Source: a virus. From it: a stretch of DNA of 51,550 nt. The position numbers and the translations under genes are program-made. The notes beneath the pieces were generated by a model. That model was given only the letters and a program-made list of their open reading frames with translations. It did not search any database and was not told the origin of the DNA. The stretch covers positions 1 through 51,550 of the IMG/VR virus record IMGVR_UViG_3300044765_000142, one strand, 5' to 3'. Below, piece by piece: positions 4,841 through 24,997 of this stretch; positions within the stretch are counted from its first letter, which is position 1; each line of letters opens with the position of its first letter.

Positions 4841-5334
4841 CACTTTTTCAAGCCGCGTACGGCCGCCTCTTGCAAATCTTTCAAAATGCGCTGCGTCATA
4901 TCGGTAAGTCCGCCGCCCATGAAGTTGCGCGCGCTGAACTGGCTGCCGGGGTGGTTCACACGGCGTGCGAACACGGTGGCGCCGTCCCCCGCGATGAACC
5001 GCAGCGAGTATCGGTTGCGCGGCAGAATGGTGTGCGGACGCGTACGACCACCGTCATTCAGCACGCCGGCGTACGGCACCTGCGACAGCGGGATGAACAC
5101 CTCGCCACGGATATCCTTGCCTTCTAGCAGCACGCGGTGCGACACTGCGGCGCGCAGGCGGCCGGAACGCACGTTCACCGACTGGCCGCTCAACTTCGAC
5201 TGCTTGATGTAGTCCTGCAGGTTCTCCATCGTCGTTTCCATCTGCAACGCCAGCTCTTCGCGAATGCGATCGGCAACGCTCAAAAAGCGCTGCTGCGTTT
5301 CTGCTTCGCCGGTGATGGTGTACGTCAGTTTCAT
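4840..5334 (-). CDS. HK97 gp10-like head-tail/tail completion protein
   Basis: 164 residues. It has a helical N-terminal part (about residues 15-50), then VRSGRLRAAVSHRV and VPYAGVLNDGG near the middle. The phrase 'SGrLr.Sv....Y...le.Gg' is typical of the HK97 gp10 family, which acts at the head-tail junction. It starts by ATGA overlap with the preceding connector gene and ends overlapping the next start, so the whole connector block is translationally coupled. Confidence 0.75.
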   Translation of the reverse strand: MKLTYTITGEAETQQRFLSVADRIREELALQMETTMENLQDYIKQSKLSGQSVNVRSGRLRAAVSHRVLLEGKDIRGEVFIPLSQVPYAGVLNDGGRTRPHTILPRNRYSLRFIAGDGATVFARRVNHPGSQFSARNFMGGGLTDMTQRILKDLQEAAVRGLKK

Positions 5335-5972
5335 GATGGCAGAATATGCGTGACACGCTTGTAGTTCTGAATGAGCGTCTGCACATACTCGGGCATGTCG
5401 CCCATGTTGCCGCCGCTCTTTCCGTCCTTGCCGGCGCCGCCGAACTGCACCGACTGTCCGTCGATGCTCTGACCACCGCCGATGCTGATCCTGTCCTTCT
5501 GCTTGTACCGAAATGCTGACAACTCCACAGCAGCCTGCGCCAGATCAGCCGGGATGGCGTTGGGCGGGTAGCCCGCCGTGTACGTCAGCACCACATTGCC
5601 CTCGCCCTTGCACCACACGCCGCCACGGAGCATCAGCTTGCGGCTGGTGAAGTAATACCCGTACGCATACTGCGGCTGCCCTCCGACGTTGGGGCTGGGC
5701 GGTACGGCCGTCCCGTTCATGTACACGGCGGCCACGGCGGCTACAGGGTACTCACGAAACATCATGGTGCCCGAACCCGTGCCTTCCCGCGTCTCGTTGA
5801 TGGTCTGTTGCACGAGAATGCGGTTGCACCAAGTCTGGATGTACGCGCTCTCAGCAGTGATCATCATCTGCAGCAGATCGTCGTTCGCCGTATTGGTGGG
5901 GCTGATACCAAGCCACTCCTTGACGTCGGCAAGGGTGGTGAGGTCGACCAGTGGGTTCGGGCTGTGCGGCAT
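5331..5972 (-). CDS. Head-tail connector (gp6-like adaptor)
   Basis: 213 residues. It begins with VDLTTLADVKEWLGI followed by a helical DDLLQMMITAESAYIQTWC, the N-terminal pattern of the phage gp6-like head-tail connector family. The second half has YTAGYPPNAIPADLAQAAVEL, also common in these adaptors. It lies directly downstream of the capsid block. A GGAG Shine-Dalgarno precedes the ATG at 5972. It probably forms the ring below the portal. Confidence 0.78.
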   Translation of the reverse strand: MPHSPNPLVDLTTLADVKEWLGISPTNTANDDLLQMMITAESAYIQTWCNRILVQQTINETREGTGSGTMMFREYPVAAVAAVYMNGTAVPPSPNVGGQPQYAYGYYFTSRKLMLRGGVWCKGEGNVVLTYTAGYPPNAIPADLAQAAVELSAFRYKQKDRISIGGGQSIDGQSVQFGGAGKDGKSGGNMGDMPEYVQTLIQNYKRVTHILPS

Positions 5973-5984
5973 GGCCGGCTCCGG

Positions 5985-6374
5985 TTAGCGCTTCTTGGCC
6001 GACTGACGGGTGGTGTTCACCGTGTCGACCGCCTTCTTCAGCGCTTCCTTCTCTTCTTCCGTCGTGGCGTCGGCGGCCAGCAGCTCCAGCGCGCGTGCCT
6101 CGACACGTGCTTGGAACTCCTCGTCGGCGAGCTGCTGGCGCGCAGCCGCGTCGATAGCGGCTTCGTAATCGGCTTTGCGCTTGGCGGCTGCGGCTTCTTC
6201 CTCCGCTTCCACGTCTTCCGCGTACTTGACAACGCCGGACGCCAATAGGCCGGACAGGCAGTTGTTGTCTTCTTCAGCGACAACAATCTTGCCATCATCG
6301 TCGGCAACGAACTCCTTGCCGAGAACGCTGACACTTGTGACGCCGGGGCGCACAACCTTGAGAATCGTATCCAT
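5985..6374 (-). CDS. Small acidic head-region protein, unknown function
   Basis: About 129 residues from ATG 6374, chosen because GGAGAG lies at good distance; a GTG at 6386 would have no spacing to it. The N-terminal 50 residues look like a compact beta domain (TILKVVRPGVTSVSVLGKEF). The rest is a highly charged Ala/Glu/Lys helix ending in a basic tail. It lies between capsid and connector genes, so a head-assembly or capsid-accessory role is likely, but I do not recognise the family. Confidence 0.7.
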   Translation of the reverse strand: MDTILKVVRPGVTSVSVLGKEFVADDDGKIVVAEEDNNCLSGLLASGVVKYAEDVEAEEEAAAAKRKADYEAAIDAAARQQLADEEFQARVEARALELLAADATTEEEKEALKKAVDTVNTTRQSAKKR

Positions 6375-6454
6375 GGTGCTCTCCACTAACTTTGGAAAAA
6401 CCGGGCGGAGGTTTCCCGCCGCCCGGCTATCTCGCCTTTAAAAGCCCGGCCGGG

Positions 6455-7948
6455 TTAGCCGTTGGCGATGTTGGTGATCACGCCCATCGAAGGCGGGAAG
6501 TAGTGCTGGAGCACCTCGTCGCAGTACACGCCGTACTCGTACTTCCGGCTGCGCAGCGGCCACTCGATCTGATAGTACTCGCGGCGAGTACGGATCTGGA
6601 TCACGTTGGTCACGTTGGACATCGGGTACGGCAGGCGGGTGGTCAGCGCCAAGATCGTGCCGGCAGGCATGTTCGGGTGCAGGTTGATGGGGATTTCAAC
6701 TGCGCCGTTCATGCTGTACTTGTTCTTGTACGACGTCACCATCGTACCGCCAGCAATCTTGGCTTGATCAACCGTGAACACGAAACGCTGTGCTTGGCTG
6801 GTTGCGCCGGCCAGCACCTTCTTGTTGATGTTGCCCTGTTCTTGCGAGGACACCAGCAGCATATCCGGCGACAGACGGTAGTTGTCCCAGCGGTCCTTCA
6901 GCATGGCGTCGATTTCCACCACGCCGCCAGCCGAGTCAGCTGTCAGCGGCGCGCCTGCGTTGTCCTTCACGTAGGCGTTGGAGCCAGCGCCCAGCGCGAT
7001 GGACAGCAGACCGTCGAACACGAGCGCGTTCTTGCTGTTGTCCTGGTTGCCGCTGACGATGGCCGAAGCCAGTTGCGCGGAAGCGTTGGACGCCTGCGTG
7101 AACACGACGCTGTTCGTGGTGGTGATGCCGTACATGCGCTCAGCACCGGCGGCACCCAGAAACCACGCATACGCCACGGCGCCGCGAATCGGCGCTGCCA
7201 CTGCGGTGATGCTCGACGTGGTGCCTGTGGTGGTGACCGTCGCGGCCGGCGAAACCTGCGAGCTGCCGCCGCCGTACTGGTCGGTCGAGCCGTCCGTGTT
7301 GTTGCGGGTGATGAGCCCCTGCACCTGCGGGAAGCCGTTGGCGTCCGGGTTGGCTTGCGCGTTGTTGAGGCCTTCCAGCGTGAGTGCCACAACGATCACG
7401 CTCCACGTGGCAGCGGCCAGCGTACCGCCCGTGGTGGAGCCCGTCAGCGTCGGCGCGGCCGGTTGGCCCAGCGCGATTTGCGTGCTGTTGCCGCCCAGGA
7501 TCACGATTTCTTCCTGCAGCATCAGCGATTCCAGCAGCGTGCGGGTCGCCAGTGCCTTCACGTCGTCGAAGCCTTCAGCAGCGTAGTCGGCTTCGAACGT
7601 CACGTAGTCTTCCAGGCCCAGACCACGGTATGCCGCGATATAGTCCTTGGTCGTGTGCACGACGGCGCCGCCACGATTGCCTTGCGACACGCCTGCCGAC
7701 AGTTGGCCGATGTTGATGCCCGTGATAGCGCGCCAGTTGGCCTGGATACCGCCCTTGCCGGAAACGCGCGGGATCATGTTGCGCAGCGGGGTGAGCACCG
7801 GGTACAGCAGCTTCGCACCGGCTTCCAGGTCGTAGAACGTCAGACCGGAAGTCGGGTTGGACGACTGCGTGTACGCCTTGTTCAGCGGCTGCGACTGCGC
7901 GCTCTTGATGAGCGACAGCGATTGTTGGATGAGTTCTGCTGCATTCAT
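6455..7948 (-). CDS. Major capsid protein
   Basis: 497 residues, after a strong AGGAG. The N-terminal part has a helical segment and FYDLEAGAKLLYPVLTPLRNMIPRVSGKGG, then ITGINIGQLSAGVSQGNRGG, as in HK97-fold capsid proteins of long-tailed phages. The last 100 residues include EIPINLHPNMPAGTILAL and YQIEWPLRSRKYEYGVY, the usual C-terminal strands. A Thr/Ala/Ser/Gly-rich middle (about residues 160-300) is probably an inserted or surface domain. It directly follows the protease/scaffold gene. Confidence 0.9.
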   Translation of the reverse strand: MNAAELIQQSLSLIKSAQSQPLNKAYTQSSNPTSGLTFYDLEAGAKLLYPVLTPLRNMIPRVSGKGGIQANWRAITGINIGQLSAGVSQGNRGGAVVHTTKDYIAAYRGLGLEDYVTFEADYAAEGFDDVKALATRTLLESLMLQEEIVILGGNSTQIALGQPAAPTLTGSTTGGTLAAATWSVIVVALTLEGLNNAQANPDANGFPQVQGLITRNNTDGSTDQYGGGSSQVSPAATVTTTGTTSSITAVAAPIRGAVAYAWFLGAAGAERMYGITTTNSVVFTQASNASAQLASAIVSGNQDNSKNALVFDGLLSIALGAGSNAYVKDNAGAPLTADSAGGVVEIDAMLKDRWDNYRLSPDMLLVSSQEQGNINKKVLAGATSQAQRFVFTVDQAKIAGGTMVTSYKNKYSMNGAVEIPINLHPNMPAGTILALTTRLPYPMSNVTNVIQIRTRREYYQIEWPLRSRKYEYGVYCDEVLQHYFPPSMGVITNIANG

Positions 7949-8028
7949 GATTGACTCCTGAGATCGGCCCTCGGGGCCAGTGTTATACGAGAAACGGTTG
8001 GTTGATGGAATTCCCTTACGGGGCCGAT

Positions 8029-10092
8029 TTACTTGCTGAGGTTGAACAGGTTGTTGCCGCCGCCCGTCAGCGCCTTCTTGATGGCGGTGGCGGCATCATC
8101 CACCTTGCCGTTTTGCCCCACGACCGGCGCGGGTGCGTCGGCATCGGGGGCATCGGTATCCTTGCTGCCTGCCGTGGCCGCCTTGCTCAGCGGCTTGTGG
8201 CCTGCGGGCTGGTCCTTCAGGGCCTTGAGTTCGGCCTCGAGGCTGGACATCTTCTGCAGCGCGGCGTCAGTCTGCGCCTTGTACGCCTTCACGATCGCGC
8301 CGATATCGCCGTCCTTGATGGCCTTTTCCAGATCGTTGTCCGGGGCCATCTTCTGCAGCTTCTGCGCCGTGAACTCGTGCATGCTGGAGATTGCTTCGGG
8401 GCCGGCGCTCTCCAGGAACACGCTCAGGCCCTTCTGCAGCAGGCCGGATTGCGCGGCCTTGTCGATGATGACGTCCTCGATGTCCAGATCTTCCGCCGAG
8501 TCCATCTCACCCAGCTCTTCGCCGACGATCGCCTTGAGCACCTGCTTGCCGGCGTCGATCCAGGCGTCCAGTGCGGCCTTGGCCTTGCTGTCGGGGTCCT
8601 TCTCGGCCAGTTGCTCGTAGCCCATGCAGTTCTGCAGGCTCTTGAGCTGCATGAAGGCGTAGCAGAAGTCGATGATATCATACATGCCCTTCTGCAACTT
8701 CTTGCCCTTTTCCAGCGTCTGCTTGCCGCCTGCGGCCTTGCCCATGTGCTCTTCGTTCGATTCCTTGAACTTCCAGCCATGGGCTTGGTCCATCGTGGTC
8801 ACCCACTTGACCGGGCCTTCGTTGGCTTCGGAATCGTCCTTGCCGAGCTTGTCCACGGCCACGTTCACTTCGAACGTCTTGCCGTTCACGCTGGCAACGC
8901 CGTCGCCAACCTCGTTGATTTCAGCTTGGTGGGTGAATTCGCCGTCCTTGAATAGAACGATGTCGCCCTTCTTCGGGTATGCACCCGCAGTCCCGTTGTC
9001 CGGGTCCACTTTCGTCGCTTTGGTCATGTCGCCACCTTGAATGGACTTTTCCTTACCTTCATCCGCCGATGGCGGGCCGTCTTTGTCAATCTTTTCCTTC
9101 CAAGCGGCGACGATCTTTGCCTTGATCTTCTTCACTTGGTCCGCCGTGTACTTGCTGGCGTTCTTTTCCTTGTTGATGTAATTCCACGCCGCGCGGATGT
9201 GCTCTTCCGTGTCGATGGGGTAGCGCTTCTTGCCGTCTTCCTGGTAACCCGGGTCGGCGTACTTGACGTCGCCGTACGGCTTGTCGCTGTCGCTGGCCTT
9301 GGTGAACTTCTCCATGGCCTCGCTGTCGTCGTCCTCGTCCATGGCCTTCTTCAGCTTCATGCAGCCGGGGCAGTCGTCGTGCTCACCGTCGCAGTCGCCA
9401 TCGTGCGTCTTTTCGTCGTCGCCGTCGCCGGCCACCTTCTTCACCGGGCCGTCTTTGTCGTTGTTCGGCTTCTCGGTGTCGGTGTTTTCTTCGGTCTGCG
9501 CGGCCTTGACGGCGCTGCCAGTGGGCGGCTGCTCCTTGGCGGCCTTGACCAGCGCCAGCAGGTCGGTGGCCGAAATGGTCTTGTTGGTCAGCATGGCGGC
9601 AACTTCCTCGACCGCCTGCTCCTCGGTAAGAGTTGCCGGTGCGTTCATTTTCTTGGCCTTCCAGAGTTGAATGACAGAATCCGGGTTGGCCGGGCGGTCA
9701 ACCAGCGAAATTTCGTTGAGCTCGAGTGCGGTAATCACCTTCGGATTGTCCGGTTCGCACTCGAGCCCGTTGCCGCCAATGCTGAAACCCTTCAGCACGC
9801 CGGCCTTCACCTTCTTCACCGAGCCTTCATCCACGATGTGGGCGCCCAGCCAAGTCTTGCCGTTCTCCAGCACTTCGCACTCGAAGGCGACACCGGCCGC
9901 GATATTGCTGTGCATCTCGCGGATGTTGCCGTACTCCATGTACGCAGGGATGGCGGCCTTCATGGCATCCGCCTTGATGATGTCCCCGTCGGCATCCTGA
10001 GCCTCGCTGCTCGCAAAGCCCCACACCTTGATGGTGCCGTCCGGTTGATCTTCCACCTTTTCAAGTGGAACATATCGCAGAATCGAGCCCAT
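8029..10092 (-). CDS. XkdF-type prohead protease fused to scaffold-like region
   Basis: 687 residues from ATG 10092, which has GGAGC seven bases upstream; the open frame extends further but without protein-like character. Residues 1-160 contain VWGFASSEAQDADGDII, GNIREMHS, KGFSIGG and LNEISLVDRPANP, the signature of the XkdF/S78-type prohead protease family (probable catalytic His in the REMHS segment and Ser in the GFSIGG region). Next comes a region with HDGDCDGEHDDCPGC, then DPGYQEDGKKRYPIDTEEHIR like the small DUF found in such proteins. The last 250 residues are helical, with a coiled coil and low-complexity end, as expected of a scaffold that is cleaved away. It sits between portal and capsid genes. 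Confidence 0.8.
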   Translation of the reverse strand: MGSILRYVPLEKVEDQPDGTIKVWGFASSEAQDADGDIIKADAMKAAIPAYMEYGNIREMHSNIAAGVAFECEVLENGKTWLGAHIVDEGSVKKVKAGVLKGFSIGGNGLECEPDNPKVITALELNEISLVDRPANPDSVIQLWKAKKMNAPATLTEEQAVEEVAAMLTNKTISATDLLALVKAAKEQPPTGSAVKAAQTEENTDTEKPNNDKDGPVKKVAGDGDDEKTHDGDCDGEHDDCPGCMKLKKAMDEDDDSEAMEKFTKASDSDKPYGDVKYADPGYQEDGKKRYPIDTEEHIRAAWNYINKEKNASKYTADQVKKIKAKIVAAWKEKIDKDGPPSADEGKEKSIQGGDMTKATKVDPDNGTAGAYPKKGDIVLFKDGEFTHQAEINEVGDGVASVNGKTFEVNVAVDKLGKDDSEANEGPVKWVTTMDQAHGWKFKESNEEHMGKAAGGKQTLEKGKKLQKGMYDIIDFCYAFMQLKSLQNCMGYEQLAEKDPDSKAKAALDAWIDAGKQVLKAIVGEELGEMDSAEDLDIEDVIIDKAAQSGLLQKGLSVFLESAGPEAISSMHEFTAQKLQKMAPDNDLEKAIKDGDIGAIVKAYKAQTDAALQKMSSLEAELKALKDQPAGHKPLSKAATAGSKDTDAPDADAPAPVVGQNGKVDDAATAIKKALTGGGNNLFNLSK

Positions 10093-16799: not shown

Positions 16800-16841
16800 G
16801 GTGACAAGATCTGTCACCTAGGGTGACAGAGAACGTCACCC
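16800..16841. promoter_or_regulatory. Two adjacent inverted repeats with GTGACA half-sites
   Basis: GGTGACA (16800) pairs with TGTCACC over five bases, and GGGTGAC (16821) pairs with GTCACCC over seven. Both share the half-site GGTGAC(A). They lie just past the stop of the 44-residue leftward gene, with no T-run, so operators or iterons fit better than a terminator. Confidence 0.5.
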
Positions 16842-16857
16842 CATGTGTCAAGGTTTG

Positions 16858-16992
16858 TCAGCGCTGCGTGGCCTGCTGCACGGCTTGCAGGTGCTGGCCC
16901 AGCGCCGCCTGCACGCTGGACACGGCCACGTGGCCCACGTACACGCCTGCGCCTACAACCACGGCCACAATAACAAGGGCTTTGGTGAACAT
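16858..16992 (-). CDS. 44-residue membrane peptide
   Basis: A short leftward frame starting MFTKALVIVAVVVGAGVYVG has a strong GGAGG five bases before its ATG. Residues 5-24 form one transmembrane segment; the rest is an amphipathic Gln/Ala helix. A promoter with a TATACT -10 (17034-17029) and an upstream palindrome (17058-17071) serves it, which makes it a real gene despite its size. Role unknown; small phage membrane peptides often alter host envelope or exclusion. Confidence 0.7.
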   Translation of the reverse strand: MFTKALVIVAVVVGAGVYVGHVAVSSVQAALGQHLQAVQQATQR

Positions 16993-17028: not shown

Positions 17029-17071
17029 AGTATAGGCCGCCGCCTACCACATACCATTAGTGGAAACCCTA
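17029..17071 (-). promoter_or_regulatory. Leftward early promoter with palindrome
   Basis: On the leftward strand TAGGGTTTCCACTA (17071-17058) is followed, after 23 bases, by TATACT (17034-17029), then the GGAGG and ATG of the 44-residue gene. The same palindrome-to-minus-10 spacing of 23 bases occurs at the leftward promoter near 22980. Confidence 0.65.
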
Positions 17072-17137
17072 GGGGTGACAAAATGGCGTGGCACCCGCCT
17101 GCTGGGCAAACCCACCCGGGCCTGCGCCACGGAGCCA

Positions 17138-17251
17138 CTACGCATCCTGCACGCGCCAGCCTTGGCCACACGCGGTAACGCGCACCTTAAAGCCGTGGGC
17201 GCGCATTGCCTTGGCTGCGCGGTTTGCTGCTTGCTTGGTGGTGTAGTACAT
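17138..17251 (-). CDS. 37-residue basic peptide
   Basis: Leftward ATG at 17251 preceded by CGGAGCCACC, a good Shine-Dalgarno. The peptide starts MYYTTKQAANRAAKAMRAHG and is basic with one Cys. It is too short for family assignment; the dedicated upstream regulatory region shared with the rightward gene at 17394 supports it. The open frame continues upstream but without protein-like character. Confidence 0.6.
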   Translation of the reverse strand: MYYTTKQAANRAAKAMRAHGFKVRVTACGQGWRVQDA

Positions 17252-17285
17252 GGTGGCTCCGTTTGTCTGTTGTCTACCTATGCGT

Positions 17286-17364
17286 AGCATAGGCACGCTG
17301 TCAACTAAATGCAAGGTAGGGTTTGCCCTAGTAGCATTTGTCTGCGCTAACACCTAACATATAC
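17286..17364. promoter_or_regulatory. Divergent promoters around palindrome TAGGGTTTGCCCTA
   Basis: The palindrome (17317-17330) stands between a leftward -10 (TATGCT, 17291-17286) and a rightward block that starts TTGTCTGCG (17338) and ends TAACATATAC (17355-17364). The rightward TAACAT begins 25 bases after the palindrome. A TTGACA also lies on the leftward strand (17304-17299). Confidence 0.65.
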
Positions 17365-17393
17365 ACATACCAACCAATGCAAGGAGCCACACC

Positions 17394-17639
17394 ATGGATG
17401 CAATGCGCTTTGCCCGCCTGTTTGCCGAAAACGTAGGCGTGCCCCACGCAGCCGCCGAAAACGCAGTGCGCGCCCTGGAACCGGCCCAGTATTACGCCTT
17501 TGCCAAGGCCGCCGACCTGTACAGCGGCCCGGCGCTGCGCTTTGCCAAGGCCCGCTACTACGGCCGCAGCGCAAACCCCATGTTTGTGCCCAAGTGTGAC
17601 CACGGCCTGGAAGCGTTCGTGCAGCAGCTTAAAGCCTAA
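17394..17639 (+). CDS. 81-residue protein, unknown function
   Basis: GGAGCCACACC precedes the ATG. The protein is helical and Ala-rich, with LFAENVGVPHAAAENAVRAL followed by ALRFAKARYYGR and a C-terminal HGLEAFVQQLK. It is a single-gene unit: its own palindrome-linked promoter lies 30 bases upstream and a terminator follows 25 bases after the stop. No family is recognised. Confidence 0.75.
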   Translation: MDAMRFARLFAENVGVPHAAAENAVRALEPAQYYAFAKAADLYSGPALRFAKARYYGRSANPMFVPKCDHGLEAFVQQLKA

Positions 17640-17664
17640 GCCACCAAACCCCGCAGTACCCAAG

Positions 17665-17686
17665 GCCCGCCGCGTGCGGGCTTTTT
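17665..17686 (+). terminator. Rho-independent terminator
   Basis: GCCCGC and GCGGGC pair over five bases and are followed by TTTTTG. It ends the single-gene unit at 17394. Confidence 0.85.
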
Positions 17687-17800
17687 GCTTTGGTGGGCCT
17701 AACACGTACCCGCGCATAATTGCCATTATGTTAAATAAAAATGGACTAGCTGCTGGGTTTGCGGGCAGCGTTGCGCAGCATAACGGCTAACAGCGCGACT

Positions 17801-17848
17801 TAGGGTTTGCCCTACTTGGCGTTGTCTGCGGTAACACCTAACATATAC
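17801..17848 (+). promoter_or_regulatory. Early promoter with palindrome TAGGGTTTGCCCTA
   Basis: The palindrome (17801-17814) is followed by TTGTCTGCGG (17822) and TAACACC then TAACATATAC (17839-17848), nearly identical to the copy at 17338. The palindrome-to-TAACAT distance is the same 25 bases. It drives the 46-residue gene at 17877. Confidence 0.7.
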
Positions 17849-17876
17849 CTAACACCAACCCAACGGAGTTACCATC

Positions 17877-18017
17877 ATGATCCGCATCGTCCCGTACCAA
17901 GATTTTCGCGGCGTGTGGCTGTACGCCCTGTGGCTTGCCGGTAAGCAAATACAATCCGGCTACACCAGTCACGCCGCCGCTGCCGCGCGCGTACGCCTAT
18001 GCATAGCGTCCATCTGA
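17877..18017 (+). CDS. 46-residue protein
   Basis: Starts MIRIVPYQDFRGVWLYALW with CGGAG eight bases before the ATG. It has two Trp and a basic Ala-rich C-terminal half (TSHAAAAARVRL). A dedicated palindrome-linked promoter and a terminator 19 bases after the stop enclose it. It is short but well supported by these signals; function unknown. Confidence 0.7.
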   Translation: MIRIVPYQDFRGVWLYALWLAGKQIQSGYTSHAAAAARVRLCIASI

Positions 18018-18035
18018 TACCCAGAACCCCAAACC

Positions 18036-18061
18036 AGCCCGGCCACCGCGCCGGGCTTTTT
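18036..18061 (+). terminator. Rho-independent terminator
   Basis: AGCCCGGC and GCCGGGCT pair over a six-base loop, followed by a run of five T. It ends the 46-residue gene's unit and marks the left border of the repeat-rich non-coding region. Confidence 0.85.
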
Positions 18062-18180
18062 GCTGCCCACGCCATAGGCCGAAGCTACCGAGCCACTCAG
18101 TTAATAGGCGGCTCTACTATTGTGCAGCGCTGGGGCATAGTTGCTCCGTATCTCTGCTTAAGCACAAAGCGTGCCATGCT

Positions 18181-18955
18181 CGTTTAATACGTTAGTAGAC
18201 ACTACCGCTGCGGGTCAACATTGACGCGGGTTTGCGGGGTGCTTCCGAGATGGAGCCACGTCGTACGAAGTTTCTTTTTATAGGGCGTGGCAAGGTGGCG
18301 GGTTGTGGGCGCTCTGTGTCTCCGTTACGCGGGTTTGTGGACGTGTGTCTTTATAGACGCTTTAAGTGAGTTGGCACGGTTATTGCGTGATGTGCTGTAA
18401 CGGTTACATTGCGTTTTGTGTAACGCCCGCAACGCCTTGTGCGGCGCGGATTTGCGGGTTGTGCGAGGTGGCTCTGTAACGCAGGCTGTTTCGATGGCGG
18501 CCGCTTGCGCAATGGGGCGCAAACCGCCGCGCGGCGCGGAGTTGCGGGTTTTTAAGAGCGTTTTTATAACAGTTAACATACTTTTTAACCTTTTTAGGTT
18601 TTTAAAACGGAAGGGTAGGGTACCTACCTTGGTTATTTTTTGGCTGCGATGGCAAACCCATCGTAATGCGTTTCTGCGGTTTGCAACACAGTTGCAATAA
18701 CCCGCAAACCCTTGTGGCCGGAGCCACGGAGTAACACGCAACACACGCCCCGCTGTTACGGTGCAAACCCAGTAACCACGCGGAGCGCGCCAGAGACACG
18801 GAGCCACGCGGGCGCTTGCGGGCAGCGTTCACCGCAAACCCAGTGCCCATGCGGATTACGCAGCTTGGCTCTAGGCGCCATAAGGCTTTGTTGGCAATGT
18901 GTGATTCGAGTGTTAGTGTTAGGTCACGCTAATGCGGGGTTAGCCGACAACCGTG
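18181..18955. other. Gene-free repeat-rich region, candidate replication origin
   Basis: From 18062 to 19027 I find no protein-like frame. A 20-base string GCGGCGCGGATTTGCGGGTT (18441-18460) recurs with one mismatch at 18531-18550. Shorter GGGTTTGCGG-like strings recur to its left, and the inverted form CGCAAACCC recurs to its right (18703, 18833), around an AT-rich core (18551-18648). The core holds AACCTTTTTAGGTT and GGTAGG-GTA-CCTACC inverted repeats. Iteron-like repeats flanking an AT-rich unwinding region fit an origin. Terminators or regulatory RNA are alternatives. Confidence 0.45.
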
Positions 18956-18984
18956 TTAATTGACGCCAAAACCCGTGCTATAGT
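18956..18984 (+). promoter_or_regulatory. Promoter without palindrome, before the 19028 gene
   Basis: TTAATT and TATAGT are spaced by 17 bases, 44 bases before the ATG at 19028. Unlike the other small-gene promoters here it lacks the TAGGGTTT palindrome, so it may be active earliest without a phage activator. Confidence 0.5.
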
Positions 18985-19027
18985 GCCGGTAACCAAGTGT
19001 GACCCTAACAAGTAACAGGAGTGCGCC

Positions 19028-19390
19028 ATGGGCCGCAAAACACAAACCGACCCCGCCTTGGCCGCCGCCTTGCAGCAGTATGTAAAGCAGGCGCAGGCAC
19101 TGCCCGCCATGCAACAAGTGGCCTTGGTGCGGACTATTGCGGAGCAAGCGACAGCCGCGTACGCCGCTGCCAAAGCGGACTTGGAACGTGCCCGCGCCGC
19201 CTACGCCGCTGCCGCCGCTGCGCTGGGCGCTGCGCGTAAGGAATTTGACGTTGCCGCTGCGCTGGCTGCCCCTGCGGTGGCCGCGTATGCAAGGGCCAGC
19301 GTGCCGCGCCGTGTGTGCCCGCCCGCCTACGCGGTGCAGTACCTGTGCGCCGTGCTGGGCGTACCCCAACCAGTTGACAACCCGGAGTAA
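19028..19390 (+). CDS. Ala-rich helical protein, unknown function
   Basis: 120 residues after AGGAG. About residues 8-90 are one long helix rich in Ala with heptad-like spacing, then a short C-terminal domain with RRVCPPAYAVQYLCAVLG. It is followed after seven bases by the double-HTH gene, so the two probably form an operon with a common early promoter. No family is recognised. Confidence 0.75.
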   Translation: MGRKTQTDPALAAALQQYVKQAQALPAMQQVALVRTIAEQATAAYAAAKADLERARAAYAAAAAALGAARKEFDVAAALAAPAVAAYARASVPRRVCPPAYAVQYLCAVLGVPQPVDNPE

Positions 19391-19397
19391 CCGAGCC

Positions 19398-20027
19398 ATG
19401 ACCAAACAAAGCAAACCACGCGGCGGCCTTACCGCTGCACAGGAACAAGAGGCGCTTGCCCTAATGCGCGCCGGTGCCAGTACCAGCACGGTGGCGCGCC
19501 AAATGGGTGGGCGCGTAAGCTTTGACACGCTGCTGCGCATACGCAAGGAGCACGACATTGCCCGCCACAGCACCAAGGGCACCAAGCGCGGGCCGCGCAC
19601 GGCCGCTGGGGGCGCGGTGGGTGGGGGTACGCCCAAAACCGCCATTTACGACTTGGACAAGGTGCTCGCGCGGGATGTGGCCGCCATACAAAGCACGCTT
19701 GCCCGCATGGCCGAGCAACGCGCCGTGCATGTGGCCGCGCTGCAAAAGCTGGATATTGAAGCCGCCGCGCTGCTGCAAAAGCAGGCCAAGGCCGTTGCGG
19801 CGCGGGGCGTGCGCGCACCGTACGCCACGGTAATGCAGCACTTTGCCAAGCACGTGAACGTGCCCGGCACGGCCACCGCCAAGCGCGAACTGACGGAGGT
19901 TGAAGCCGCACAGGTGCGCGCCGCGCTGGCGCAGGGCGTAAGCGGTGCACAGTTGGCGCGGGAGTTTGGCTGCAGCGCCATGTGCATTAGCCGCATTAAG
20001 AACAACAAGACCTACGCGCCGAGGTGA
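19398..20027 (+). CDS. DNA-binding protein with two helix-turn-helix segments
   Basis: 209 residues from ATG 19398; the frame is open further upstream but overlaps the preceding gene. An N-terminal homeodomain-like HTH is visible at about 11-50 (AAQEQEALALMRAGASTSTV then ARQMGGRVSFDTLLRIR). A resolvase-like HTH lies at about 165-205 (AAQVRAALAQGVSGAQLARE then FGCSAMCISRIKNNKTY). Between them is a basic linker and a helical middle with two AALQK/ALLQKQ stretches. It probably binds DNA as a multimer. It is a good candidate for the regulator of the palindrome-linked promoters around it, or for an origin-binding protein. Confidence 0.75.
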   Translation: MTKQSKPRGGLTAAQEQEALALMRAGASTSTVARQMGGRVSFDTLLRIRKEHDIARHSTKGTKRGPRTAAGGAVGGGTPKTAIYDLDKVLARDVAAIQSTLARMAEQRAVHVAALQKLDIEAAALLQKQAKAVAARGVRAPYATVMQHFAKHVNVPGTATAKRELTEVEAAQVRAALAQGVSGAQLAREFGCSAMCISRIKNNKTYAPR

Positions 20028-20030
20028 GCC

Positions 20031-20111
20031 ATGGAAAACTACGTGCTGGGGCTGCTAAGCGTGGCCGTGTGGGCGCTGTATGTGGTGGGGTTGCCGTTTG
20101 TCGGGTGTTAG
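20031..20111 (+). CDS. 26-residue membrane peptide
   Basis: MENYVLGLLSVAVWALYVVG, then LPFVGC and a stop, with AGGTGAG just before the ATG. It is a single membrane span with almost no extramembrane part. It starts three bases after the HTH gene's stop. Small and thus uncertain, but start signal, position and composition agree. Confidence 0.5.
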   Translation: MENYVLGLLSVAVWALYVVGLPFVGC

Positions 20112-20156
20112 GGGTTTCTGCTAATACCGGTTGTCTGCTTTAACACCTAACATACA
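20109..20156 (+). promoter_or_regulatory. Early promoter with degenerate palindrome
   Basis: TAGGGGTTTCTGCTA (20109-20123) is followed by TTGTCTGCTT (20131), TAACACC, then TAACATACA (20148). The palindrome-to-TAACAT distance is again 25 bases. It would drive the run of small genes starting at 20237. Confidence 0.65.
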
Positions 20157-20236
20157 GCCATGGTTGCAGTGCGGGGTAGCAAACGCAGCAAGTACTCAAA
20201 CCCAGTGCCGCAACCGCCCAATAACAGGAGCACGAC

Positions 20237-20641
20237 ATGGAAATTACCAACCGCACGCAGGCCCGCGCCGCGCTGGATACGCTTATGCCCCACGTGGCTG
20301 CAGCACACGGCAGCTTTAGCCGCTTGCCGGCCGAGCAACAAGCCACGTTGCGCGCCGCGCTTACTTGGGCGCTGCAAAACACCCGCGAGCTTATGCCCGC
20401 CCATGTGGTGGAGGCCTGCAAGCGCCACGGGCTGCCGTACCAAAACGGCCAGTTTGTGGACGAGCTGTTTGCGGTGGTGCTGCACGGCCCGCAGGCCATT
20501 AGCTACGTGGTGCAGCGTATGCGCGAAAACGGCTGGACTGTGCCCGCCCGCTGGGACGAGCAAGTAGCCCTGTTTGAGCGCCACGGCTTTACGGTGGCCA
20601 AGCACGCCACCCGCAAGTACTGCTACACGGTGGGGGTGTGA
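20237..20641 (+). CDS. 134-residue protein, unknown function
   Basis: ACAGGAG before the ATG. The protein has ARAALDTLMPHVAAAHGSF, AHVVEACKRHGLPY and FVDELFAVVLHGPQ, and ends in a short KYCYTVGV strand; mixed alpha/beta with no metal or catalytic pattern. First gene of a tightly packed plus-strand run (20237-22594). No family is recognised. Confidence 0.75.
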   Translation: MEITNRTQARAALDTLMPHVAAAHGSFSRLPAEQQATLRAALTWALQNTRELMPAHVVEACKRHGLPYQNGQFVDELFAVVLHGPQAISYVVQRMRENGWTVPARWDEQVALFERHGFTVAKHATRKYCYTVGV

Positions 20642-20642
20642 C

Positions 20643-20894
20643 ATGCTTACCCAACAAGACTACCGCGCCGCGCTGCTGGGCTACTACCGCGTGTATCGCC
20701 TGCTGTGCGGCGACGCGTCCACTGTGGCCTACGCCCGCGCCAAGGCCAGCACAAAGCCGCTGCCGGAGGACCGAGCCACGCAGCGTGTGCGTACCGCAGC
20801 CCTGCACGCCCAAGAACGCGCCAAGCTGTACGACGCACCCATGCAGGTGACGTTCCATACCGTGTACGGCAACCTGCGGCAGGACAATTACTAG
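20643..20894 (+). CDS. 83-residue protein, unknown function
   Basis: Starts MLTQQDYRAALLGYYRVYRL one base after the previous stop, so translation is probably coupled. It is basic and helical, with a C-terminal MQVTFHTVYGNLRQDNY that may form a strand. No family is recognised. Confidence 0.65.
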   Translation: MLTQQDYRAALLGYYRVYRLLCGDASTVAYARAKASTKPLPEDRATQRVRTAALHAQERAKLYDAPMQVTFHTVYGNLRQDNY

Positions 20895-20902
20895 GCGCCG
20901 CC

Positions 20903-21145
20903 ATGCTACACGGTCTAGACCTATACACGTACCGCAGCCGCCGCAGTTGGCCGGGCGAGAGCCCCGCCGTTGCGCTGGCAGCGGCGCGCAACAACGCGGG
21001 CAACGAACTGCCGCCCGCACACCCGGCGGACGTGGCCATGCACCGCATGCAGACGCGCCCATGGCCGTACGATGCACGAAACACGTGGCGCCTTGCATAC
21101 AGCGTGGCCCGCATTGACCAAAGGAGCAGACATGGAAACGATTGA
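20903..21145 (+). CDS. 80-residue protein, unknown function
   Basis: Starts MLHGLDLYTYRSRRSWPGES eight bases after the previous stop with a weak ribosome site. Basic, with several Trp and Arg. Its end overlaps the next start by 14 bases. The codon pattern matches neighbours, but the call is less sure than others in this run. Confidence 0.55.
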   Translation: MLHGLDLYTYRSRRSWPGESPAVALAAARNNAGNELPPAHPADVAMHRMQTRPWPYDARNTWRLAYSVARIDQRSRHGND

Positions 21146-21662
21146 ACTGGCCCCTAAGTGGGCCGCTGTGCTGGACGCGTTGCTGACCGCTGCGCGTACT
21201 GGCCACCACGACGCCAGACAAGAGCTGGACCGCATGGCACAGTTGGCTGACCGCTATGTGGCAGGCCGCAAGGCCAACGACGCCCTGTGGGACAGCTTGC
21301 AGGCGCCGCCCGTGGACACCGAGCAAATGCTCGTTATAGCCATCCGTGTGATGGCCTTGGACAATATCGGCCACACCCCAACTGAAACGGAGGCAAAGGC
21401 CATTGTCGAGAGCTTGTGGTATCACGAAGCAGACAGCTTGACGGAGGCCGAAGTAACGGAGTTTGCCCGCTGGTTTGCCGGCTGCAACGCGCGGGAGCGT
21501 TGGGCTGCGTGCGCCGGCGAAGACATTACGGAGACGGGTGGCGACAGGATAATGGTTGACCACGCGCCGGACGGCGTGGACGGTGGCCCCGTGCAAGTGG
21601 TTGTGCCGCCTGTGGCGGATAAGGTGCTCAACGCTTTGTTTGACGCGCTGGTGAAACCATGA
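21132..21662 (+). CDS. 176-residue acidic protein, unknown function
   Basis: AAGGAGCAGAC precedes the ATG. The sequence is helical and acidic, with two modules resembling TEQMLVIAIRVMALDNIGHT and LTEAEVTEFARWFAGCNARE, and a Pro/Val-rich hinge before a final helix. Its stop overlaps the next start (ATGA). No family is recognised. Confidence 0.7.
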   Translation: METIELAPKWAAVLDALLTAARTGHHDARQELDRMAQLADRYVAGRKANDALWDSLQAPPVDTEQMLVIAIRVMALDNIGHTPTETEAKAIVESLWYHEADSLTEAEVTEFARWFAGCNARERWAACAGEDITETGGDRIMVDHAPDGVDGGPVQVVVPPVADKVLNALFDALVKP

Positions 21663-21952
21663 CCGCCCCGACCATCAAACTCGCCACGGTAGCAACCACG
21701 CTGCGGCAAACCCGCGCGTGGGCCAGTCAACCGGGCGGAGACCCCGCGTTCGTGCGCGCTGTGCTAACCTGCGTTGCCATGCTGGAGGAGCAGCTCGCCG
21801 CGCATGCGCCGGACCCGCTGGCGTTCCGCATTGCGTGCGGCCAGCACGACCACGCCGTGAAGGAGAAAGAACATGAAAAAGTACCTGCTGTACATAGCGT
21901 GGCGCCGCTGCGGCCGAGCCCCGAGCGTGGCGCTGCACCTCGCTCGGAATGA
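21659..21952 (+). CDS. 97-residue protein, unknown function
   Basis: Starts MTAPTIKLATVATTLRQTRA by ATGA overlap. The first 70 residues are a plausible helical domain (AFVRAVLTCVAMLEEQLAAH). The last 27 residues overlap the next gene by 80 bases and look low in complexity, so the functional part may be the first 70 residues. Confidence 0.6.
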   Translation: MTAPTIKLATVATTLRQTRAWASQPGGDPAFVRAVLTCVAMLEEQLAAHAPDPLAFRIACGQHDHAVKEKEHEKVPAVHSVAPLRPSPERGAAPRSE

Positions 21953-22112
21953 CCGCCGCCCGCTGCACCTGCCCACCACGGCGCACGAGACATTGCTGGC
22001 CCACGCACGCGGCATTGTGCGGTTCGCCTGCACATTCGGTGGAGACCACCGTGCTGCGTGGCGGCTGGCATGGCGCATGGTGCGCAACCTGAACAGGCGG
22101 AGGGCGCTGTGA
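21873..22112 (+). CDS. 79-residue Arg-rich protein, unknown function
   Basis: AAGGAGAAAGAAC gives a strong start at 21873, inside the end of the previous gene. The protein (MKKYLLYIAWRRCGRAPSVA onward) is very rich in Arg, with ARGIVRFACTF and WRLAWRMVRNLNRRR at the end. It could bind nucleic acid or be membrane-associated through its basic amphipathic helices. It is coupled to the next gene by GTGA. Confidence 0.6.
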   Translation: MKKYLLYIAWRRCGRAPSVALHLARNDRRPLHLPTTAHETLLAHARGIVRFACTFGGDHRAAWRLAWRMVRNLNRRRAL

Positions 22113-22366
22113 CACCGACCACACGCCGCCTCTACGCCGCGCACAGGCGCGAAGGCGTGCCGGCCCACATGGCGCTGGCACGCGCTCGGTTCGATGTACC
22201 GCCTTCAGGCAGGCCGTGGCTGCCGCTTTCGCGCGCGGATTGCGTCCGGCTGGCCGCTGAGCGTATGCGCAGCTATCCACCGCCGCCCGGGGTGTGGGCT
22301 GCACGTACGCTGTGGGGCTGGTGGTGGGGGCATACCCGTTTGATTGAACAACCAAGAGGAGATTGA
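22109..22366 (+). CDS. 85-residue basic protein, unknown function (GTG start)
   Basis: The GTG at 22109 overlaps the previous stop (GTGA) and has GGAGG five bases upstream. The protein is basic and Trp-rich at its end (GVWAARTLWGWWWGHTRL). The sequence AAHRREGVPAHMALARAR resembles a short helical motif also seen in the leftward protein at 22644. Function unknown. Confidence 0.6.
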   Translation: MTPTTRRLYAAHRREGVPAHMALARARFDVPPSGRPWLPLSRADCVRLAAERMRSYPPPPGVWAARTLWGWWWGHTRLIEQPRGD

Positions 22367-22369
22367 ACC

Positions 22370-22594
22370 ATGGCATACAAGTTGCTTGTCACCATCCACA
22401 TATTTACGGTTGGTGTGACCACCAACGAACTGTCGTTTGGCACCTTTGATGAACGAGCCGCAGCGCAGGCAGCCATCCGCAAGGCGCACGACAACAATTG
22501 GTCCACTGTTACATTCGCGGAGTACGAAGCCAGCAGCCCCACCGTGTACATCTCCACAGGAAACGACACGCTGCGGGTGTACACGGGCGGGTAA
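22370..22594 (+). CDS. 74-residue protein, unknown function
   Basis: AGAGGAG precedes the ATG. The protein alternates strands and one helix: MAYKLLVTIHIFTVG, then ERAAAQAAIRKAHDN, then a Thr-rich strand end DTLRVYTGG. Last gene of the 20237-22594 run; a terminator follows 18 bases after the stop. Confidence 0.7.
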   Translation: MAYKLLVTIHIFTVGVTTNELSFGTFDERAAAQAAIRKAHDNNWSTVTFAEYEASSPTVYISTGNDTLRVYTGG

Positions 22595-22611
22595 GCCGGA
22601 GCCACCGAGTA

Positions 22612-22640
22612 ACAAGGCCGCCAACTTGGCGGCCTTTGTT
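22612..22640 (+). terminator. Terminator between convergent genes
   Basis: AAGGCCGCC and GGCGGCCTT pair over AACTT, followed by TGTTGTTTT. It ends the plus-strand run and lies just before the end of the leftward gene at 22644. Confidence 0.75.
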
Positions 22641-22643
22641 GTT

Positions 22644-22943
22644 TTAATGCGTCGTTCCCCATGGGTTGCGCGCCTGCTGGTAGGCGTACCACCAAACGGC
22701 TCGGGGCTGGTGCAGGTGGGCGCGGTGGTGGTTGCGCATGGCGGCACGCAGGGTCTGGAACCGATCGTAGGCGGCTTGCAGACGCAGCGCCTGCGTGCCC
22801 ATGCCAAAGCGGCTGTAGGGTTGCGGGGCGCGCAGCCACAGGCGGCTATGGCCTGCACGCACGGCGGCAAGGGCCCGGGCGGCGGGCATCCCCAGTGCGC
22901 GCAGGCACATATAGCTGGGGTAGATACGGGCTGAGACAGTCAT
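22644..22943 (-). CDS. 99-residue basic leftward protein, unknown function
   Basis: AAAAGGAGTCCGCC precedes the ATG at 22943, with TATAAT 33 bases upstream. The protein starts MTVSARIYPSYMCLRALGMP and has AARALAAVRAGHSRLWL and AYDRFQTLRAAMRNHHRAHL; it is rich in Arg, Ala, Trp and His. It is convergent with the 22370 gene. No family is recognised. Confidence 0.65.
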   Translation of the reverse strand: MTVSARIYPSYMCLRALGMPAARALAAVRAGHSRLWLRAPQPYSRFGMGTQALRLQAAYDRFQTLRAAMRNHHRAHLHQPRAVWWYAYQQARNPWGTTH

Positions 22944-22975
22944 GGCGGACTCCTTTTAAAGTGTGCTGCACCTGC

Positions 22976-23052
22976 ATTATAGGTGACTGTCTGGTATTCC
23001 GTACTAGGGTTTCCCCTAGTTGGTGCTAGTCGTTGATATCGCCTAACATACA
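22976..23052. promoter_or_regulatory. Divergent early promoters around palindrome ACTAGGGTTTCCCCTAGT
   Basis: The palindrome at 23003-23020 serves both sides. Leftward, TATAAT (22981-22976) follows 23 bases later for the gene at 22943. Rightward, TAACATACA (23044) follows about 25 bases later for the gene at 23093. Both distances match the other copies. Confidence 0.7.
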
Positions 23053-23092
23053 GCCATACCAAGCAACAACAAACAACCGGCGGGGGTCTGCC

Positions 23093-23230
23093 ATGTATCA
23101 AATCTACGATATCAAACTCCAGTGCTACGTGGGCAAGCCCTACGGCAGCCTGCATGCGGCCCACCGCCGCGCGGACAAGCTGGACATGGCCTACGGCGCC
23201 GTACGTTACCAAGTGCGCCGCGTCGGCTAA
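23093..23230 (+). CDS. 45-residue protein
   Basis: Starts MYQIYDIKLQCYVGKPYGSL. It looks like a compact strand-helix-strand peptide (HAAHRRADKLDMAYGAVRYQ). The ribosome site GGGGGT is weak, but a palindrome-linked promoter lies 40 bases upstream. Such short Tyr-rich peptides recur among phage early genes; no function is known to me. Confidence 0.65.
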   Translation: MYQIYDIKLQCYVGKPYGSLHAAHRRADKLDMAYGAVRYQVRRVG

Positions 23231-23234
23231 GGCC

Positions 23235-23393
23235 ATGCGCGCCGGCTTGCTCCTGTGCCTGTTGCTGGCCGGCTGCACCGCCAGCCGCTACGGCACCCCG
23301 CTCCAAACGTATGAGTATCTGCGCGCTGCTGGCGTAAGCCACCCGAGCGCGACCACCGCCAGCCCAGCGGCATACTCCGGGCACCGCAAGTAA
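23235..23393 (+). CDS. Small phage lipoprotein
   Basis: 52 residues. The first 14 (MRAGLLLCLLLAGC) are a complete lipoprotein signal with lipobox LAGC, so the mature form of about 39 residues would be lipid-anchored. It follows five bases after the previous gene. Position among early genes suggests superinfection exclusion or envelope alteration rather than lysis. A spanin is less likely because the Rz/Rz1 pair is elsewhere. Confidence 0.65.
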   Translation: MRAGLLLCLLLAGCTASRYGTPLQTYEYLRAAGVSHPSATTASPAAYSGHRK

Positions 23394-23424
23394 GACTAAC
23401 AACGCTTTACCGAGGGGGCAGATC

Positions 23425-23724
23425 ATGCCTGGGATCTATTCACGCTTTCACCCGAGCGTCGGGAAGAAACGTGCACGCATTATCGCCGTGTACGGCGACC
23501 CCACCTTCAACCGGCTGAGCACCGGCGTGCGCACCGAGCGCCCGTACGACCATGCGCTGACACCACTGCAGAACCACGCGGCCGCCGTGCAGGCGTTGGT
23601 AGCCAAGCTGGAGGCGCGTAGCCCCGGCGCGTGGGCGGGCAAGTGGCACGCTGGCGGCGTGGGCGATGGGTACATGTGGGCGCGTGAGAACGACACGCCA
23701 CACCTGCTGACCGCCGAGGTGTGA
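23425..23724 (+). CDS. 99-residue protein, unknown function
   Basis: Starts MPGIYSRFHPSVGKKRARII after a G-rich ribosome site. The middle contains PLQNHAAAVQALVAKLEA and the C-terminus WAGKWHAGGVGDGYMWAREN, with several aromatic residues. No family is recognised. Confidence 0.7.
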   Translation: MPGIYSRFHPSVGKKRARIIAVYGDPTFNRLSTGVRTERPYDHALTPLQNHAAAVQALVAKLEARSPGAWAGKWHAGGVGDGYMWARENDTPHLLTAEV

Positions 23725-23726
23725 CC

Positions 23727-23951
23727 ATGGGCGATATCATCAGCAAAGACGTGTGGGCCAAGCCGCAAGCCCTTCCAGACTTGTACGACTACCCTTATGA
23801 GTGGCCGGCTGGGGTAATAGACTTCAGTGCGCGGCTCAATGCCATGTGGCAGCGCGGCTGGAACGATGCCCAAGCCAAGCGCCCGCGCGCACTTACCAAC
23901 CGCCCTTATAACGACGGCTACGATGCCGGTTGTCGTAGGGTTTTTACCTAG
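23727..23951 (+). CDS. 74-residue protein, unknown function
   Basis: ATG at 23727, two bases after the previous stop. It contains FSARLNAMWQRGWNDAQAKR and NRPYNDGYDAG. The W..GWNDA...R pattern is common in small phage proteins. The last codons overlap the palindrome at 23936. Confidence 0.65.
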   Translation: MGDIISKDVWAKPQALPDLYDYPYEWPAGVIDFSARLNAMWQRGWNDAQAKRPRALTNRPYNDGYDAGCRRVFT

Positions 23952-23990
23952 AAAGATAGTCCTTGCGTTTAGCTGACACTCAGCTATCAT
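23936..23990 (+). promoter_or_regulatory. Promoter before the H1-like gene, with palindrome
   Basis: TAGGGTTTTTACCTA (23936-23950) is followed by TTGCGT (23963-23968) and, 16 bases on, TATCAT (23985-23990). Here the palindrome lies 10 bases, about one helical turn, farther from the -10 than at the other promoters, and a recognisable -35 is present. Confidence 0.6.
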
Positions 23991-24043: not shown

Positions 24044-24997
24044 ATGCAACAAGCCGCCCAACTGCAAGGCACTGCCGAAACCCAACTGGCCGCCGTCGCA
24101 CAAACCTTGACCGCCACGGCCGAGGCTACCCACAAGGCCAACAAGGCCAAGATCGCCTCCGCCAAGCCCACCAAGGGCAGCGGTTTGAAGGCTGCCAAGG
24201 CCGCCGAGCAGGCGCCGAGCGTGACCGTGGTCACTACCCCGGACGCCCCCAAGGCCAAGCGCGCCAGCAAGAAAGCCCCGCAGCATGTGGTGGACGGTGC
24301 GGTCGCCGCCGTGGAAGCGCTGGGCGGCACCGTCACGCCGCAGGCTAAGGCGCGCACGACGGATGCTAAGGCCCCGGCCCTGGAGCCCGGCGTGTACAAG
24401 AACCGCGAGAACCGCAGCACCATCGTCTTCAGCGTGGGCAACAAGCTCGTGCACCACATCCCCATGGACGCCACGTTGTCCGCCGCCAAGATGAGCATCG
24501 ATCGCTTCAAGGGCGAATACATGCTGATGGCCGACTACAACATCGCCAAGGCGGCGGCGCAGTACCTCGCCGGCGCCAGTGCCCGCACGCCGGGCGCGGA
24601 AAAGGTGCTACAGGAGCTCGCCAAGGCCGCCGCTGGCAAGCCGCTGGCGCAGGGCGAGCTCGTTGCGCTGATGAGCCGCACGGACGAGGAAGCCGCTGCC
24701 GCCAAGGCCGCAGGCACCGCGCCCACCAAGGCTGCTCGCACGCCGGCCGCGCCCCGTGCTCCCAAGGTGTGGGCTGACGCCGCCAAGGTGCTGAAGGCTG
24801 GTGCCGTCAACTTCTCCGACAAGGTGCGCCCGGGCACGTTCCGCTATGCGCTGATGGACGCGATCGTCAAGGCTGCGGCCAAGGGCGCCACCAAGGCCGA
24901 GGAACTGCTGGGCAAGGTGGTGATGGAAGGCAAGCCCGGCATCGCCAAGGTGGACATCGAGTTCGCCGCTGCCAACAAGTACATCACCCTCGGCTGA
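24044..24997 (+). CDS. Histone-H1-like DNA-binding protein A
   Basis: 317 residues, AAGGAG before the ATG. Residues about 25-105 and 225-255 are Lys/Ala/Pro/Thr-rich, like H1 tails. A folded middle (about 106-185) holds GVYKNRENRSTIVFSVGNKL, then DRFKGEYMLMADYNIAKAAA. The last 55 residues (TFRYALMDAIVKAAAKGATK onward, ending KYITLG) resemble the C-terminus of the gene at 44154 and look like a small winged-helix fold. It may coat or condense phage or host DNA, or modulate transcription. Confidence 0.7.
   Translation: MQQAAQLQGTAETQLAAVAQTLTATAEATHKANKAKIASAKPTKGSGLKAAKAAEQAPSVTVVTTPDAPKAKRASKKAPQHVVDGAVAAVEALGGTVTPQAKARTTDAKAPALEPGVYKNRENRSTIVFSVGNKLVHHIPMDATLSAAKMSIDRFKGEYMLMADYNIAKAAAQYLAGASARTPGAEKVLQELAKAAAGKPLAQGELVALMSRTDEEAAAAKAAGTAPTKAARTPAAPRAPKVWADAAKVLKAGAVNFSDKVRPGTFRYALMDAIVKAAAKGATKAEELLGKVVMEGKPGIAKVDIEFAAANKYITLG

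Follow-up and report, generated by a model that had tools for sequence, protein, structure and literature searches.

Palindromes at a fixed distance from -10-like elements as putative activator sites in the control region of an environmental siphovirus

The lambda CI protein at OR2/PRM and the class II regulators Crp and Fnr bind operators centred at about -42, beside or over a weak -35 hexamer, and Fnr boxes in the class II position consist of 5-bp arms separated by a 4-bp gap. In iteron plasmids, inverted half-iterons are located at the rep promoter and direct repeats at the origin. At the Pm promoter of phage Mu, which has no -35 hexamer, two 5-bp inverted repeats centred at -43.5 are occupied by a Mor dimer, which substitutes for the -35 contact (PMC4390567). 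Activators in E. coli typically bind upstream of the -35 element, class II sites being most frequent near -45, and repressors overlap the polymerase site (PMC4280137). Here, we analyzed a family of palindromic elements (dyads) in the virus record IMGVR_UViG_3300044765_000142, the whole 51.5 kb of which (positions 1 to 51,550; GC 61%) is referred to as the window. The dyads sit in the control region (16.8-24 kb) separating a leftward structural arm, which begins at about 16.3 kb and encodes the tape measure, capsid, portal, and terminase, from a rightward replication arm, which begins at about 24 kb and encodes the primase, DNA polymerase, helicase, and ligase. To our knowledge, transcription control has not been studied in this group of environmental siphoviruses.

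Dyads and promoter geometry in the control region

The sequence TAGGG-N4-CCCTA (TAGGGTTT(G/C)CCCTA), a 14 bp dyad with 5-bp arms and a 4-bp gap, was found as an exact copy at three sites: 17317-17330 (TAGGGTTTGCCCTA), between the divergent genes 17138-17251 (minus strand) and 17394-17639 (plus strand); 17801-17814 (TAGGGTTTGCCCTA, plus strand), upstream of gene 17877-18017; and 23005-23018 (TAGGGTTTCCCCTA), between gene 22644-22943 (minus strand) and a divergent small open reading frame (ORF) starting at 23093 (plus strand). A fourth copy with one mismatch, TAGGGTTTCCACTA, was located between two leftward genes at 17058-17071 (minus strand). A previous sequence-only reading of this DNA had listed six palindromes, two of them between divergent genes. 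The four sites above and both divergent locations stood, but the remaining two sites were degenerate. The copy at 20110-20123 (AGGGGTTTCTGCTA, plus strand), placed in register with the repeat, had 5 mismatches in 14 positions, so that 20109 was no longer regarded as a good palindrome, and the element at 23936-23950 (TAGGGTTTTTACCTA, plus strand), upstream of gene 24044-24997, was a weak 15-mer dyad. In 150 simulated order-3 Markov copies of the window, the count was 0 for both TAGGG-N4-CCCTA (three observed) and TAGGGTTT-N3-CTA (four observed). When three mismatches were allowed, seven copies were observed against 3.3 expected, which was unconvincing alone; the claim therefore stands on the exact copies. 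Only two dyads with 5-bp arms reached three copies in the window, and TAGGG-N4-CCCTA was the only one restricted to the control region.

The four clean dyads face genes in six directions, and each direction contained exactly one TANNNT hexamer within 15-40 bases, always at a distance of 23-25 bases. On the minus strand, TATACT (17029-17034) was 23 bases from the 17058 dyad and 36 bases from the start codon of gene 16858-16992, TATGCT (17286-17291) was 25 bases from the 17317 dyad and 34 bases from the ATG of gene 17138-17251, and TATAAT (22976-22981) was 23 bases from the 23005 dyad and 32 bases from the ATG of gene 22644-22943. On the plus strand, TAACAT was separated by 24 bases from the dyads at 17317 (17355-17360, with the ATG at 17394 33 bases on) and 17801 (17839-17844), and by 25 bases from that at 23005 (23044-23049, with the ATG at 23093 43 bases on). 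The distance from the -10 to the start codon was thus 32-36 bases in five of the six promoters. These distances agreed with those reported earlier, in which the dyad end and the first base of TAACAT were 25 bases apart at 17317 and 17801 and 26 bases apart at 23005, and the leftward -10s at 17058 and 23005 followed after 23 bases; the leftward TATGCT at 17317 was new. The probability that a TANNNT occurs at 23-25 bases by chance is approximately 0.02-0.04 per site, and none was present at this distance in the two directions without a gene (rightward from 17058 and leftward from 17801). Assuming that TANNNT is the -10 hexamer at positions -12 to -7, the dyad centres were at -42.5, -43.5, or -44.5, matching the position near -43 that had been proposed. 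The earlier reading overlooked that each of the seven window promoters with this spacing has a CC immediately 5' of its -10.

A sequence block common to the rightward promoters had also been proposed. A perfect 23-base block (TTGTCTGCNNTAACACCTAACAT) was shared by 17338-17360 (TTGTCTGCGCTAACACCTAACAT, a direct repeat), 17822-17844 (TTGTCTGCGGTAACACCTAACAT), and 20131-20153 (TTGTCTGCTTTAACACCTAACAT), all on the plus strand, but only CCTAACAT was retained at 23005. The second and third copies carry the -10 TAACAT of the 17801 site and that of the 20110 site (20148-20153, plus strand), respectively, and the block is the only perfect part of the latter. No match to the block was found in viral contigs. 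For the weak dyad at 23936, the best -10 was TATCAT (23985-23990, plus strand), 34 bases off and upstream of gene 24044-24997.

In line with the poor -35 elements described before, the best -35 at the dyad promoters matched 2-4 of 6 positions at spacers of 16-18 bases, and an extended -10 (TGn) was absent from every one of them. A scan of 16.2-25.0 kb for the consensus TTGACA-N16..18-TATAAT yielded no sigma70 promoters. In contrast, extended -10s were present in promoter-like sequences without a dyad, namely TGCTATAGT before gene 19028 and TGGTATGCT before the leftward structural operon, which supports the idea that the dyad promoters may need help. The description of the targets as single-gene units applied to several of them, with terminator-like hairpins located 3' of genes 17394-17639, 17877-18017, and 22370-22594. 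The dyads themselves were ruled out as terminators because of their position upstream of the -10s and the presence of stronger terminator-like hairpins elsewhere. Several genes served by dyad promoters (17877-18017, 17138-17251, and 23093-23230) have products that are tiny (approximately 37-46 aa) and, as judged by eye only, possibly of one beta-beta-alpha type.

Recurrence of the element in a relative

Searches with single TerL and polymerase sequences gave no matches, whereas profile searches from alignments added 159 loci from the same wider group (2.87 Mb). The full dyad did not occur in these 2.87 Mb. The looser pattern TAGGGTTTNNNCTA was found four times in the window and once each in loci L130 and L250, and scrambled patterns gave 0-3 copies. 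The closest relative found, IMGVR_UViG_3300044656_000344 (hereafter G001), includes L130; its terminase and portal were 55% identical and its primase was 48% identical to those of the window. Its copy, TAGTAGAAACCCTA, was located upstream of the ortholog (41% identical) of gene 24044-24997 (plus strand), a conserved gene of unknown function, so that a dyad precedes this gene in both phages. In G001, this dyad is better than the weak one at 23936, and the -10 TATTAT was 23 bases off.

We then searched the relatives with a matrix trained solely on the window sites. The top site in G001 was TAGGGTTTCTACTA, again before the 24044 ortholog, with TATTAT at 23 bases, and the second site, GAGTGTTTCCCCTA, was located between divergent small genes with TACACT at 24 bases. 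Small genes are close to both sites, and with the TANNNT taken as the -10, both dyad centres fall within the -42.5 to -44.5 range of the window promoters. The score of the second site was near the top of the range obtained with shuffled sequences, and this site counts chiefly by its spacing. Among 15 matrix matches in the related loci, a -10 at 23-25 bases was found only at the G001 site before the 24044 ortholog. The motif search over the genome and its relatives, which the earlier reading had put forward as a check, recovered the dyad with a -10 at 23 and 24 bases in G001. These results suggest that the dyad and its spacing were selected together, G001 providing independent evidence, and together the fixed geometry and the recurrence in a relative give good support to a promoter family linked to the palindrome. 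A scan for the 24044 protein revealed no further orthologs, which limited the comparison to this one relative. No DNA-level relatives of the window stretches searched were present among 50,697 phage records. By protein, the nearest named relatives were Stenotrophomonas phage AXL3 and Pseudoxanthomonas phage PW916 for the replication genes (38-46% identical, as for ctUtU524) and Brevundimonas phage Polewnik for the head genes (major capsid protein 54% identical); unlike the window, the parts of the AXL3, PW916, and Polewnik genomes examined did not contain the exact dyad.

Possible regulators and alternative explanations

The arrangement resembles that of known activator-dependent phage promoters, with a new recognition sequence. 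Like Mu Pm and the C-type late promoters, the promoters described here combine 5-bp inverted repeats (centred at -42.5 to -44.5 here and at -43.5 in Pm) with a recognisable -10 and no good -35. The element spans 14 bp with a 4-bp gap rather than the 16 bp of Pm, the recognition sequence and spacer differ, and several small-gene promoters, including divergent pairs, replace the one middle operon of Mu. The position of the operator beside a weak -35 is also shared with lambda CI at OR2/PRM and with class II Crp and Fnr, but no such protein was found in the phage, and the dyads are single sites rather than operator triplets. We consider it about an even chance that the dyads are sites for a phage-encoded, class-II-type activator of the small-gene promoters. 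A dimeric protein, most likely phage-encoded, would bind the dyads near -43, covering the poor -35 region or immediately upstream of it, and would recruit the host sigma70-type RNA polymerase to the small genes flanking the control region, with one dyad serving two promoters at 17317 and at 23005. The target genes would then be switched on after the start of infection, and the promoters would be delayed-early or middle rather than early, as they had been called. If this is correct, a regulon in this group of environmental siphoviruses has a cis-element that is precise and testable, and DNA binding to the dyad offers a route to its activator.

Several observations weigh against activation by a phage protein. 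No Mor/C-family (PF08765) match was obtained at E<=1 in the window or in G001, and no other recognised activator family is encoded in the phage. The spacing of 23-25 bases has a 2-bp spread, looser than the usual strict class II arrangement unless the -35/-10 spacer covaries. Weak -35-like TTGGYR sequences (TTGGCG at 17801 and TTGGTA in G001) make basal activity possible, and all promoter calls were made from sequence. In addition, the small genes of 16.8-24 kb had no relatives in the related loci and offered no conservation at the gene level. This absence suggests that the promoter design outlives the genes it serves and, if the present reading is right, that phages can retain a promoter geometry without retaining the small genes of their control regions.

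The leading candidate for the activator, and no more than a candidate, is the product of 19398-20027 (plus strand), with a C-terminal helix-turn-helix (HTH) domain (HTH_23/HTH_7), which the earlier reading had already suggested. It was the only clear HTH protein found, and its HTH domain shared 43% identity across 37 aa with that of a small G001 protein (E 0.006). The product of 24044 is another possible candidate, because its own promoter carries the dyad in both phages, as expected for an autoregulated gene.

Activation had been proposed in the sequence-only reading, and it most economically explains why the promoters have a dyad at about -43 and the geometry of Mu Pm but neither a good -35 nor an extended -10; nevertheless, a repressor would look alike in sequence. 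Phage repressor operators that cover the -35 region, for example to silence the genes after the first minutes, would allow each divergent site to shut two genes, and the dyads at 17317 (25 and 24 bases) and 23005 (23 and 25 bases) indeed lie nearly symmetrically between two promoters, which would be economical. A dimer footprint would extend to the -35 hexamers. Some -35s read TTGGYR, and there are several good -10s (TATAAT and TATACT). However, with -35s this poor and no extended -10 to make up for them, the promoters could not be strong unaided, and every dyad lies upstream of -36, away from the usual repressor positions at +1 and in the interval separating -35 from -10 (PMC4280137). Given these site positions in E. 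coli and the Mu Pm geometry, we favour the activator and regard the repressor as a distinctly less probable alternative. It is quite improbable that the regulator is encoded by the host, for example a Crp/Fnr-type protein activating the promoters immediately on entry. This explanation would account for the lack of a phage activator of a known family and for the Fnr-box-like arms and gap of the dyad, and the otherwise unrelated virus G017 contains two TAGGGTTT(T/A)CCCTA sites followed by TGCTATGAT -10s at 34 and 26 bases. Nevertheless, the G017 contig was chosen by a pattern scan and its sites precede paralogous genes, and thus represent one duplicated case; the motif was absent from most of the related phages, and a search of the open-access literature yielded no report of it. 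Scanning genomes for the portal returned one metagenome-assembled genome and no usable host.

The dyads could also reflect an origin-binding initiator that recognises monomer-type GGGTTTGC sites at an origin and inverted copies at promoters, coupling replication to transcription as in iteron plasmids. No other 8-mer of the window was as regionally clustered as GGGTTTGC, the core of two dyads: 10 of its 11 copies were located within 16.8-19.03 kb (binomial p 2e-13, uncorrected for approximately 33,000 words), a clustering that the earlier reading had overlooked, and the dyads at 17058 and 17801 each had a second copy 44-48 bases upstream. The adjoining origin-like region (18018-19027; GC 55% versus 61%) spans approximately 1 kb without convincing genes and contains clustered GGGTTTGC, GCGGGTT repeats, and a 33-nt direct repeat at 18428 and 18518. 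This clustering, reminiscent of iteron Rep operators, suggests a possible additional role at an origin for the protein that binds the dyads or for one related to it. Unlike iterons, however, the GGGTTTGC copies are irregularly spaced, no Rep homolog was recognised, and the dyads at 17058 and 23005 read GGGTTTCC. The link was also not kept in G001, which retains the dyads but has unclustered GGGTTTGC and an origin-like region with GGATCAC and AAGCATGCT instead. We therefore consider an initiator improbable, and it is similarly doubtful that a single new protein acts both at the GGGTTTGC sites of the origin and as a dimer at the -43 dyads, which would couple origin firing to the switching of a middle regulon. 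Finally, the palindrome might be the passenger of recently duplicated promoter cassettes without any regulator, as the repeats at 17317 and 17801 shared 88% over 48 bases and that at 20110 shared 73%. This is very improbable, because the sites at 23005 and 17058 and the two sites in G001 keep the dyad and its spacing on either strand and with varied -10s although they lack the TTGTCTGC block, and because the dyad is kept in a relative at 41-55% protein identity.

Other repeats and features of the phage

Sites of the form TAGGGTTT(T/A)CCCTA with TGCTATGAT -10s were observed at 13073 and 17579 of L296 (IMGVR_UViG_3300011102_000332), before two paralogous small genes of an otherwise unrelated virus, the -10s being 34 and 26 bases away. 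A loose scan of viral contigs for a dyad plus TANNAT gave, among the matches listed, mostly unrelated viruses and was left out of the evidence. The unrelated viral contigs L030, L043, L054, L082, and L124, also among the matches listed, contained several GTTAGGGANNTCCCTAAC-type palindromes, often just before start codons; these were set aside as a different element. At 16800-16862 of the window, three tandem GGTGACA-N5-TGTCACC dyads (GGTGACAAGATCTGTCACC, GGTGACAGAGAACGTCACC, and TGTGTCAAGGTTTGTCAGC) were spaced by 22 bp. This array lies between gene 16858-16992 and the leftward structural operon and is a possible operator array or packaging site. In L145 (IMGVR_UViG_3300048625_000523), repeats of 61-88 bases (GCCTAACGTTTGA...GTTAGGC / GCCGAACGTTTGAG...GTTCGGC) were located between small ORFs at 5000-8700. 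They look like integron attC sites, which would make this region a gene-cassette array between the phage terminase and primase.

Rfam and tRNA searches gave no matches. The phage looks lytic, because no integrase was among the protein families listed for the window. The right arm (24-51 kb) contains genes with a 5-hydroxymethyldeoxyuridine (5-hmdU) DNA kinase helical domain, radical SAM/SPASM, YfbR-like nucleotidase, and MazG-like domains, as well as an Acb2/Tad1 hairpin domain. This gene set suggests that the phage may carry hypermodified DNA and encode a sponge against CBASS (cyclic oligonucleotide-based antiphage signaling system) and Thoeris defences.

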